The notes beneath the pieces are model-generated. The model was not told where the DNA came from. It made no database searches and saw only the letters and a list, made by a program, of their open reading frames with translations. The translations under genes and the position numbers were made by a program. From Amycolatopsis thermoflava N1165 (lineage in GTDB: Bacteria > Actinomycetota > Actinomycetes > Mycobacteriales > Pseudonocardiaceae), in assembly GCF_000473265.1 (NCBI RefSeq), contig NZ_KI421511.1:6368360-6432359 (forward strand): a stretch of DNA of 64,000 nt, written 5' to 3'. This document shows positions 52,573 through 55,372 of the stretch, in pieces; the first letter of the stretch is position 1, and every line of letters starts with the position of its first letter.

Positions 52573-52927
52573 CCGGATCACGCTCACCGGGCTGCGGGTG
52601 TTCGGGCGGCACGGGGTGTTCGAGCACGAGAAGCGGGACGGGCAGGAGTTCGTCGTCGACATCGTGGCGTGGCTGGACCTCGCGCCTGCCGCCGCTTCGG
52701 ACGATCTGACGCAGACCCTGCACTACGGCGAGCTGGCGCAGCTGGCGGCGGACATCGTCGGCGGTGAGCCGTACGACCTGATCGAGAGCGTCGCGGGCCG
52801 GATCGCGGACGAGGTGCTGAAGGATTCGCGGTTGTCCGCGGTCGAGGTGACGGTGCACAAACCGTCGGCGCCGATCCCGCTGAACTTCGCGGACGTGGCG
52901 GTGACCGTGCACCGGGAGCGCGGGTGA
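52565..52927 (+). CDS. folB: Dihydroneopterin aldolase
   Basis: It forms 6-hydroxymethyl-dihydropterin and glycolaldehyde. The 120-aa protein has GLRVFGRHGVFEHEKRDGQEF with the active Glu, TLHYGELAQLA, LIESVAGRIAD, and VTVHKPSAPIP, all family hallmarks. Start GTG 52565 overlaps folP. Confidence 0.95.
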   Translation: MPDRITLTGLRVFGRHGVFEHEKRDGQEFVVDIVAWLDLAPAAASDDLTQTLHYGELAQLAADIVGGEPYDLIESVAGRIADEVLKDSRLSAVEVTVHKPSAPIPLNFADVAVTVHRERG

Positions 52928-53412
52928 GGGCGGTCCTGTCCCTGGGGTCGAACCTGGGCGACCGGCTGGCGTACCTGAAGTCGGTGATCGGTTTCTTCGG
53001 GCCCGCGGTGGTCGCGGTGTCCAGTGTGTACGAAACGAAACCGTGGGGCGTCGAGGACCAGCCGGATTTCCTGAATGCGGTGTGCATTGTGGACGATCCC
53101 GCGCGGGACGAGTGGGCGTGGCTGCGGGCTGGCCAGGAGCTGGAACGCCGGGCAGGCCGGGTGCGCGAACTGCGGTGGGGGCCGCGCACGCTGGACGTCG
53201 ACGTGGTGACGGTGGACGGGGTGCGCTCGGACGACCCGGAGCTGCTGCTGCCGCACCCAGGAACGCCCGAGCGCGCGAGCGTGCTGATCCCGTGGCTGGA
53301 AATCGACCCGGCCGCGGTGCTGCCCGGCCACGGCAGTGTCCGCGACCTGCTGGCGGCGCGCCCCGACTCCGACCGCGCTTCGGTGCGCCTGCTGCAGCCC
53401 TTCCCGCGCTGA
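52924..53412 (+). CDS. folK: 6-hydroxymethyl-7,8-dihydropterin pyrophosphokinase
   Basis: It adds pyrophosphate to the pterin before folP acts. The 162-aa protein has VLSLGSNLGDRLAYL at the start, VYETKPWGVEDQPDFLNAV, and the signature RWGPRTLDVDVVTVDG with LPHPGTPERASVLIPWLEI. GTGA overlap with folB. Last gene of the fol operon; in mycobacteria the DUF3180 gene follows directly, but here 1.5 kb of other DNA intervenes. Confidence 0.96.
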   Translation: MRAVLSLGSNLGDRLAYLKSVIGFFGPAVVAVSSVYETKPWGVEDQPDFLNAVCIVDDPARDEWAWLRAGQELERRAGRVRELRWGPRTLDVDVVTVDGVRSDDPELLLPHPGTPERASVLIPWLEIDPAAVLPGHGSVRDLLAARPDSDRASVRLLQPFPR

Positions 53413-53441
53413 GCGATCTTTGAACCAAACCCAAGGTAGCT

Positions 53442-53584
53442 GGGTGGTCATCCCGTCGCCTGACACTGGACGATCACCTTGAGCCAGGGCCGCAACCTCC
53501 GCACCCGCGTGAGTTGACATGCCAACCTTGCGGCCCTGGCTCAAGGTGATATGCACAAACCGGAAGGCGACGGGATGACCACCC
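53442..53584. repeat. Nested double inverted repeat, element 1
   Basis: The outer arms are perfect over 19 bp: GGGTGGTCATCCCGTCGCC (53442-53460) and its complement at 53566-53584. The inner arms are perfect over 23 bp: 53473-53495 (ATCACCTTGAGCCAGGGCC...) and 53528-53550. The loop is 32 nt and the arms are separated by 12 and 15 unpaired nt. No T-run follows, and no frame is plausible. Together with element 2 it accounts for most of the gene-free stretch 53413-53920. Arms this exact imply recent spread or selection for the fold. Confidence 0.93.
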
Positions 53585-53726
53585 GGCGACCACCCACCCG
53601 AGGTGAGACGACGACGGTCCCCTGGTCATCCCGGAGCCTGCCCGTCCGGCGAGGACTATCTTTTGATCTTTAAACCCGCGCCTACGCGCGAAAAGCGCCT
53701 CACGGCGCTCAAACGGTCACCTTCCG

Positions 53727-53852
53727 ACCACCCCCGCCCCCGATGCCTGATTGTGTTTCAGTCGCCGAGCAGCGGCGTCAAGGCGGGAAAGCGTGCCTTG
53801 ACCCCGCTGATCGGCGACTAAAGATCGGCTGTGGATCGGGGGCGGGGGAGGT
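53727..53852. repeat. Nested double inverted repeat, element 2
   Basis: Same design as element 1, different sequence. Outer arms of 18 bp with one mismatch: ACCACCCCCGCCCCCGAT (53727-53744) and 53835-53852. Inner arms of 25 bp with two mismatches: 53760-53784 (AGTCGCCGAGCAGCGG...) and 53795-53819. The loop is 10 nt. Between the two elements (53585-53726) are GATCTTTAAACC, which echoes GATCTTTGAACC at 53415, and small GCGC palindromes, nothing coding. Confidence 0.88.
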
Positions 53853-53920
53853 CTGGTTGGGGTGGCCGGCCTACTTGCGTTGCCGGCTCGCTGTTGCGGG
53901 GCGGGAGGCAACCTCGGCGA

Positions 53921-54850
53921 TCACGCCCGCAAAGCCGCCGTCAGCCACTCCACCGCCGGCACCCGCGTGGGCACCTCCGGCCATCCGTTCATGATCGCCA
54001 TCAGTTGCCAGTACCGTTCGGCCCTGCGGTCGGTCCCGACGGCGATCCGGTCGGCCACCGAGGCGCGGAACGCCGGATCCGCGGGGTCCTGCCCGTCCGG
54101 CGCCCACCCCCGCGCGATGTCGTCGGCCAGCTCGCGCCCCTCCGGTGAATCCGGGGCCAGCCCGGCTTCCAGCGCCTTCTGCGCCCGCTCGCTCCAGCCG
54201 ATCCAGTCCTCCTGCGCAGGCACGGCCGCCTGGCCCGCCCGCAGGTCGTCGGCGTGCCGTTCGCTCATCCGCCGCGTCACCGCGCGGAACTCCGGGTCCT
54301 GGATCAGCTCGGCGAACTCGATCCACGCCTCCAGCTGCTCGGGCGACGGGTCGTCGGGCAGCTCCGGTTTCGCCGAACGCATCCGCTCGTAGAACTCCGC
54401 GTCGACCGGCAGGCCGTCGGTCACCTCCCGCCAGAACTCGTCGACCAGGCGGGCCCGCTCTTCGTCGGACATCGCCGCCAGCCTGTTCATCAGTTTCACT
54501 TCCTCCAGCTCGGATTCGCGTTTCACGACCGCACGCAGAACCGCGCGCCGCAGCCGCAGCCTGCGCATCTGCTCGTCGAGCGCGTCGATGTGCCGCCGGG
54601 CGAGGCGGGGGACGCTCGTCTCCCGCGCGAGCACCGCGGCCACATCCGTCAGCCCGAGGCCGAGTTCGCGCAGCGTCTTGATCAGTTCGAGCCGGGCCAT
54701 CGCCGTCACGTCGTAGAGCCGGTAGCCGGAACCGGTGCGGTCGGCGGGCGGGAGCAGCCCCTCGTCGGAGTAGAACCGGATGGTCTTGACCGGCAACCCG
54801 GTCCGCCGGCTCAGCTCGCCGATCGTGAACGTCCCGTCCGCGCGTCCCAT
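53921..54850 (-). CDS. MerR-family regulator with long effector domain
   Basis: This 309-aa protein has an N-terminal MerR winged helix (FTIGELSRRTGLPVKTIRFYSDEGLL, interrupted by no gaps), dimer helix, then a 190-residue helical domain (WIGWSERAQKALEAGLAPDSPEGRELADDI; MAIMNGWPEVPTRVPAVEWL) like TipAS-type effector domains. ATG 54850 has GGAGG 7 bp upstream. It sits with the nested palindromes between folK and the DUF3180 gene, which are neighbours in mycobacteria, so the whole 1.5 kb looks acquired. Confidence 0.85.
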   Translation of the reverse strand: MGRADGTFTIGELSRRTGLPVKTIRFYSDEGLLPPADRTGSGYRLYDVTAMARLELIKTLRELGLGLTDVAAVLARETSVPRLARRHIDALDEQMRRLRLRRAVLRAVVKRESELEEVKLMNRLAAMSDEERARLVDEFWREVTDGLPVDAEFYERMRSAKPELPDDPSPEQLEAWIEFAELIQDPEFRAVTRRMSERHADDLRAGQAAVPAQEDWIGWSERAQKALEAGLAPDSPEGRELADDIARGWAPDGQDPADPAFRASVADRIAVGTDRRAERYWQLMAIMNGWPEVPTRVPAVEWLTAALRA

Positions 54851-54910
54851 GCTCAACCCTCCAGCCGGTGGAGAGTCAACTGTGCCAGATCACCTGGGTA
54901 CCGTGGCGGT

Positions 54911-55372
54911 ATGCACTTCACCCGGCCCCGAGAGCTGGTGATCGCCGGGCTGGTCGGGCTCGTGGCCGCGTACCTGTTGTTCAGGTTCGCCTACGGGGAC
55001 CTGCCCCGCCTGCCGCGGCCGGTCGGCGTCACGCTGTTCGTGCTCGCGGTGATCGAAGTCGCACTGGCCTTCGTGATGCGGTCGCGGGTCCGGTCCGGCC
55101 GGCTCGTCAACGCGGTCTCGGCGGCGCGCACGGTCGCGCTCGCGAAGGCCTCCTCGTTGCTCGGCGCGATCATGCTCGGCGCGTGGGCCGGGATCGCCGG
55201 CGCGTTGATCCCGCGGGCGTCGGAGCTGGCCGCGGCGTCGAGCGACCTCCGCAGTGTCGCGATCGGAGCGGTGTGCGCGGCCGTGTTGATCGCCGCGGCG
55301 CTCTGGCTCGAGCACTGCTGCCGCACGCCGGAAGACGACGAAAGTGATCCCGATCATCACCCGACCGGTTAA
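54911..55372 (+). CDS. DUF3180 membrane protein (Rv3605c type)
   Basis: This 153-aa protein has four membrane helices (LVIAGLVGLVAAYLLFRFAYG; GVTLFVLAVIEVALAFVMR; a central pair; IGAVCAAVLIAAALWLEH). RTVALAKASSLLGA is a conserved patch. It is always near folK in actinobacteria as I recall; function unknown. Confidence 0.85.
   Translation: MHFTRPRELVIAGLVGLVAAYLLFRFAYGDLPRLPRPVGVTLFVLAVIEVALAFVMRSRVRSGRLVNAVSAARTVALAKASSLLGAIMLGAWAGIAGALIPRASELAAASSDLRSVAIGAVCAAVLIAAALWLEHCCRTPEDDESDPDHHPTG

Follow-up and report, generated by a model that had tools for sequence, protein, structure and literature searches.

A dispersed chromosomal repeat of Amycolatopsis thermoflava N1165 shares a covarying nested hairpin and a near-invariant 30-mer with actinomycete integrative conjugative elements

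Two large nested palindromes separate folK from a MerR-family gene in Amycolatopsis thermoflava N1165, which raises the question of what they are and how they came to stand there. They lie in a stretch of 64,000 nucleotides (NCBI RefSeq assembly GCF_000473265.1, contig NZ_KI421511.1, positions 6,368,360 to 6,432,359 of the forward strand), hereafter the window. A preliminary description placed double palindromes at 53442–53584 and 53727–53852; both are real, their coordinates hold and they fold far above shuffled sequences. In the first, here stem A, the outer arms extend over 27 nt (53435–53461/53565–53591, 93% matched), with a single T.G pair as the only deviation over the segments listed in Table 1, and the inner arms of 23 nt match at 100%. 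In the second, stem C, inner arms of 28 nt (53757–53784/53795–53822, 89%) are enclosed by outer arms of 19 nt (53726–53744/53835–53853, 95%). The stems span 149 and 128 nt, respectively. DNA folding gave z-scores of -12.5 and -12.4, and none of 200 shuffles was equally stable. Three of the four arm pairs rank second to fourth among the 30 inverted-repeat pairs of the window, the fourth being shorter than the 20-nt limit of this ranking and hence outside it. Fold scores and ranking together indicate that the palindromes are not due to chance.

The two palindromes had been taken for two elements. Our alignment over 40 places showed that they are instead halves of one repeat unit of about 470 bp, a mosaic of leader, stem A, module B, spacer, stem C and tandem tail, which we call class I (Table 1). 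A search of the own genome with positions 53413–53920 found at least 40 places (the best 40 of 134 candidates scored). Thirty-three of them are nearly full length, and the 32 besides the window copy are 81–92% identical to it. With partial copies and remnants counted, class I occupies at least 45 places in the chromosome. The preliminary description would have favored a one-off duplication had the arms been unique in the genome; with at least 40 places, this explanation is rejected. Some copies are truncated and lack parts of A, B or C. Over the 40 copies, truncated ones included, mean identity to the consensus reaches 99% for module B and 95–96% for the arms of stem A, against 77% for the tail and 74% for the stem A loop. 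In a complete count, module B occurs at 43 places of the own genome with at most 3 mismatches, 40 of them exact, while the reversed control gave 0. At two places that seemed empty we detected a remnant, with the left arm fused to B; these were excluded from the count of empty sites, and they show how stem A can be lost. Two class I copies (L039 and L041) end inside or at stem C, where the adjoining sequence looks IS-like by eye.

Table 1. Features of the folK–MerR locus, in window coordinates
Feature	Position	Strand	Remark
folK (HPPK)	52924..53412	+	native left neighbor; Pfam
Class I repeat, whole	53413..53905	+	between folK and MerR stop codons; right end fuzzy (tail repeat)
Left leader	53413..53438	+	loosely conserved, GATCTTTGAACC..AAGGTA; 71% mean consensus identity
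Stem A outer left arm	53439..53461	+	inverted-repeat, covariation and fold analyses
Stem A inner left arm	53473..53495	+	covarying
Stem A inner right arm	53528..53550	+	inverted-repeat and covariation analyses
Stem A outer right arm	53565..53587	+	inverted-repeat and covariation analyses
Module B	53627..53656	+	near-invariant 30-mer; repeats stem A left arm motif ATCCCGNNGCCTG
Mini-hairpin b inside module B	53644..53656	+	GTCC-GGCGA-GGAC; elsewhere GCCC/GGGC or GCC/GGC
Stem C	53726..53853	+	element 2 of the preliminary description
Tail unit	53854..53901	+	one to several tandem copies at other loci
MerR-family regulator	53921..54856	-	native right neighbor, outside the insert; Pfam
DUF3180 protein	54911..55372	+	Pfam

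Relatives show what the locus looks like when the repeat is absent. Twelve of 18 genus relatives have folK beside the MerR gene and lack any arm, B or stem C motif between the two, so the MerR gene is native to the site. It had been proposed that the palindromes are landing marks of an integrated 1.5-kb block that includes MerR; we reject this block, and the landing marks lose their support with it. The gap between aligned protein ends at these repeat-less sites measures 14–127 nt in 11 of the 12 and 580 nt in G014; only 8 bases (G006) and 7 bases (G015) separate the two stop codons in two of these relatives. The repeat is present at folK in the own genome (G000), in G007 and in G017, where a contig end cuts it, and remnants persist in G009 (with B) and in G016 (stem C only). 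No MerR gene was found near folK within the stretch fetched from G001 and G010. The empty sites that the preliminary description had suggested looking for thus exist in relatives.

Beyond this site, we found matches to the repeat in 17 of 19 genus genomes, the own included, with at most 33 candidates scored per genome. Among the matches listed, which comprise at least 120 stretches, the arm motif appears in many Amycolatopsis species and in Prauserella, Saccharomonospora and Thermocrispum; one match in Ruegeria is probably due to chance. When 90 copies anchored on A+B (among them four loci of class II, described below, and one own-genome locus, L057) were compared with the 40 own loci by their flanking proteins, both flanks agreed for 15 copies, a single flank for 20 and neither for 50, while 5 gave inconsistent matches. 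Of the 20 single-flank cases, nine are 27–34% identical and were taken as paralogs; in nine of the other 11, little sequence, or none, was available on the opposite flank. With the paralogs and L057 set aside, 25 shared-place matches remain, which belong to A. deserti, A. thermalba and A. tucumanensis or to G006, G015 and G017, while other Amycolatopsis clades carry the repeat at other places. Module B with at most 2 mismatches is present in 4 of 394 genomes of the class: the own, G050 and two of another family. One locus of another actinomycete family (L235, in G376) holds an exact module B and a similar nested hairpin whose outer arms differ and still pair; L234 folds differently from the nested hairpin despite its module B match. 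Two species deserve separate mention. In Amycolatopsis sp. GM8 (L181), the repeat lies downstream of a homologue of the L018 gene, with its orientation inverted relative to L018. On the 7,237,391-bp contig of G009, most of the best 40 scored candidates lack stem A and several lack the middle of stem C, with B often kept; this absence of palindromes reflects either loss in the species or an artefact of sequencing or assembly. No plasmid matched the window repeat or the own copy in an integrative element described below, phages gave no match to the window repeat, and viral contigs lacked the exact module B pattern; plasmid and phage origins were rejected.

A second kind of copy was found in actinomycete integrative conjugative elements (AICEs). 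A covariance model of stem A gave matches in 32 of 150 genomes of the family (best 20 per genome), seven of these being the own genome and its genus-mates; some matches in other genera may be long hairpins of unrelated origin. We fetched 20 such loci, and 17 of them have both stem A and B and belong to class II; L198, L203 and L204 lack the pair and were left out. Class II A+B starts abruptly, mostly beside an ORF with GC3 below the host average, and a different hairpin, followed by a conserved end, takes the place of stem C. To its right, various loci hold genes for GntR, DUF218, FtsK/SpoIIIE, RepSA and integrase, as identified by Pfam. Among 17 class II loci with at least 7 kb of right flank, 13, spread over 8 genera, encode FtsK and/or RepSA there, and in 13 of these 13 the genes lie on the A-to-B strand; in the other four (L190, L194, L196 and L197) neither was found in that flank. 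In seven class II loci a 3' fragment of tRNA-Pro, identified through the tRNA in L076, is located 350–1430 bases to the left of A+B (L075 duplicates L191).

One class II copy, which accounts for one of the 43 module B places, belongs to the own genome. It lies in an apparently complete AICE (C1 5540758–5555752) bounded by a perfect 60-bp repeat that reaches into tRNA-Arg, with the order Fic gene, ORF, A+B, GntR, FtsK, RepSA, integrase. Integrase, Rep, FtsK/TraB and att sites are thus all found around this copy, and in part around the other class II loci. The class I copy of the window lies outside any AICE, between folK and MerR. A second RepSA locus of the own genome (L249) has no nested hairpin of this design, which indicates that the A+B site is not general to RepSA elements. 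Together these arrangements hint, from sequence comparison, that AICE machinery gave rise to the repeat or services it.

Several observations suggest that stem A is maintained as a fold. In an alignment of 23 of the 46 copies then found, 99.1% of the cells pair. In these 23 copies, both bases have changed in 7 of the 46 pairs, 6 of which belong to the inner helix, a result reached by none of 500 shuffles, although related sequences can exceed shuffles in such a test. The inner helix also tolerates mismatches on one strand: read from A to B, 143 copies (149 with stem A, minus 5 without a proper B and minus L196 with its poor inner stem) show 57 G.T against 4 A.C. This tilt is present in the 17 class II copies (36 and 0) and in the 126 class I copies (21 and 4), while the almost invariant outer helix has none (4 G.T, 4 A.C). 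Some of the surplus of G.T could arise by deamination of C to T in single-stranded DNA and would then require no selection for the fold. Mini-hairpin b exists as GTCC/GGAC, GCCC/GGGC and GCC/GGC, always paired except in single odd copies. In the variants L200–L202, GACCTG is seen by eye in both the left arm and B, the two having changed together, as expected if one partner reads both or if both pair with the same strand. Stem C has many paired changes too, but its non-standard pairs tilt the opposite way on the window strand (12 A.C against 1 G.T, over 17 inner positions, a range picked after the data had been viewed). Because of this opposite tilt, use of one strand is supported for stem A only.

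The best explanation, which we hold tentatively, is that A+B acts in cis as a single-strand hairpin site of AICEs and that the class I copies are non-autonomous chromosomal derivatives which lose stem A by recombination with B. In the AICE, A+B would fold as single-stranded DNA on the RepSA/TraB coding strand, which we take to be the displaced strand, and would, during rolling-circle replication of the excised circle, most likely serve as a single-strand origin or as a site that aids transfer. The derivatives would have entered beside gene 3' ends at various times and would have been inherited vertically among close species; we found no enzyme that could account for their spread over the chromosome. 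Their decay may proceed by recombination of the left arm with the matching half of B, which would delete stem A; remnants without stem A still hold B. A role in single-stranded DNA is preferred on four grounds: the single orientation relative to the rep and tra genes, the covarying fold, the wobble tolerance on one strand and the lack of any conserved promoter candidate upstream.

Part of this evidence would also suit a structured non-coding RNA, in which A+B, possibly with C, is present in many copies per genome and acts through an A-to-B transcript. Covariation in stem A and hairpin b, tolerance of G.U on one strand, the near-invariant 30-mer between helices and an RNA fold z-score of -14.0 are all consistent with such a molecule. 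Several observations make it somewhat unlikely in our view. We saw no conserved promoter-like sequence directly before stem A in class II loci: of the 15-mers common to at least 4 left flanks, 60 of 62 were listed, and all fall within the tRNA fragment. The nearest left ORF points away from A+B in 14 of 20 class II loci, and the genes flanking class I point every way. The opposite tilt of stem C also fits poorly with one transcript, and Rfam returned nothing at the gathering score for positions 52900–54400, only two sub-threshold miRNA matches. A third reading would make the repeat an ordinary transposable unit of the MITE or REP kind, in which the stems and B are merely binding sites of an unseen transposase. 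Such mobile palindromic units had been suggested from the outset, and the many copies, the mosaic truncations, the repeat-less sites and the other places in distant clades stand in their favor; the hallmarks of a classical MITE did not turn up. At the 40 loci, flanking duplications did not exceed those of 220 control pairs (best score 26, control maximum 28, for long duplications with fuzzy right ends), and in the loci read we saw no autonomous element bounded by such ends. The exception is L209 (G000:C1 2552500–2555200), where a class I copy stands between direct repeats of about 80 bp from a gene 3' end (score 116 against the control maximum of 28); it is the sole locus with a long flanking repeat among those tested. 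The fixed orientation of A+B in AICEs also argues against simple transposition, and we consider this reading unlikely.

The position of the copies on the chromosome bears on the transposable unit and on a further possibility, that selection keeps them as 3'-end or terminator structures by which convergent genes are insulated from one another. The dnaA gene lies at 5.86 Mb and its antipode near 1.53 Mb; of 42 B-bearing class I places, only 3 fall in the region that extends a sixth of the genome to each side of the antipode, against an expectation of 14. The largest gap between these places, 2.30 Mb, arises in 0.02% of random placements, and in G009 and G016 stretches of 1.9 and 2.3 Mb that include the dnaA antipode are free of copies among the matches listed. 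Accessory DNA is expected to gather around the origin antipode, and the scarcity of copies there counts against a transposable unit. Co-orientation with the replication fork was observed at 19 of 45 class I places, which gives no polar replication signal. As to gene ends, the 40 own copies occupy 21 convergent, 18 tandem and 1 divergent junctions, against 8, 36 and 8 among 52 junctions of the window (convergent excess p = 5.5e-8 by number), the classes coming from our own crude gene caller and the baseline from this single 64-kb window, which itself contains the folK locus. This excess is what terminators would produce, but 18 copies in tandem junctions are not, and neither stem is directly followed by a T-run on its 3' side in the locus sequence, as already noted in the preliminary description, contrary to what an intrinsic terminator would have. 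Moreover, L025, L030 and L024 show by eye a separate hairpin with a T-run beside the repeat, the folK site lacks the repeat in 12 of 18 relatives, and the AICE copies abut ORFs of both orientations. We therefore regard the terminator explanation as very improbable.

Compared with known systems, the repeat shares features with several. Palindromic REP/BIME units are short, some 20–40 nt, and RIMEs are mosaic palindromic repeats. Class I copies are likewise dispersed, intergenic, mosaic and located beside gene ends, but the stems exceed the REP/BIME length, and the unit differs in its two long nested stems, its invariant module and its link to conjugative elements. Like MITEs, the repeat is non-autonomous, hairpin-forming and present in many copies, with repeat-less sites; it differs from them in the flanks already described and in that no transposase partner was seen in the loci read. 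Class II A+B resembles rolling-circle single-strand origins such as the ICEBs1 sso in being non-coding, strongly folded, apparently strand-specific and placed in a rolling-circle integrative element. The sti locus of pIJ101 and the stf region of pMEA300 offer further comparisons with single-strand origins, and we know of no case in which such a site is dispersed over a chromosome. In a search of mainly openly accessible papers, we found no description of the stf region of pMEA300 and no earlier description of the repeat. Class II copies sit inside elements of the pSAM2 type, with integrase, RepSA, FtsK and GntR and, in the own case, a tRNA attachment repeat, whereas class I copies lie outside them. 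The part of the source on pSAM2-type AICEs available to us describes the origin and the TraB site clt and, within that part, mentions no nested-hairpin module (PMC3218068).

What connects the chromosomal family with a cis-element that recurs in conjugative elements is the covarying fold together with a 30-mer that hardly varies. Should A+B serve replication or transfer, it would give a handle on how AICEs treat single-stranded DNA and would bear on whether they mobilise chromosomal DNA in Amycolatopsis; should it be an RNA, it would represent a family that Rfam lacks and that has tens of members in each genome. By analogy with Streptomyces TraB, which binds chromosomal clt-like sites according to the portion of the same source available to us (PMC3218068), AICE proteins might even recognise dozens of chromosomal A+B sites and use these as starting points for replicating or moving chromosomal DNA, a prospect we judge highly doubtful.

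The left side of the AICEs carries genes of another kind, encoding TIR, AbiV-type HEPN, GmrSD-type, DUF4411 with an IrrE-like peptidase, DNA methylase and Fic proteins. In a comparison of 10 such proteins with PADLOC models, 6 gave a match at E 0.001, and two of the 6 matched only weakly; in a Pfam search, 6 of 10 left-side proteins were assigned to no family. In L076, L196 and L197, A+B stands beside tRNA-Pro sequence and one accessory gene, and a search of the fetched flank, which is 3.0 kb long for L076, revealed no conjugation genes; these loci are possibly AICE satellites. The Fic protein of the own AICE (L248 775–1962) strongly matches the SoFic defence model.
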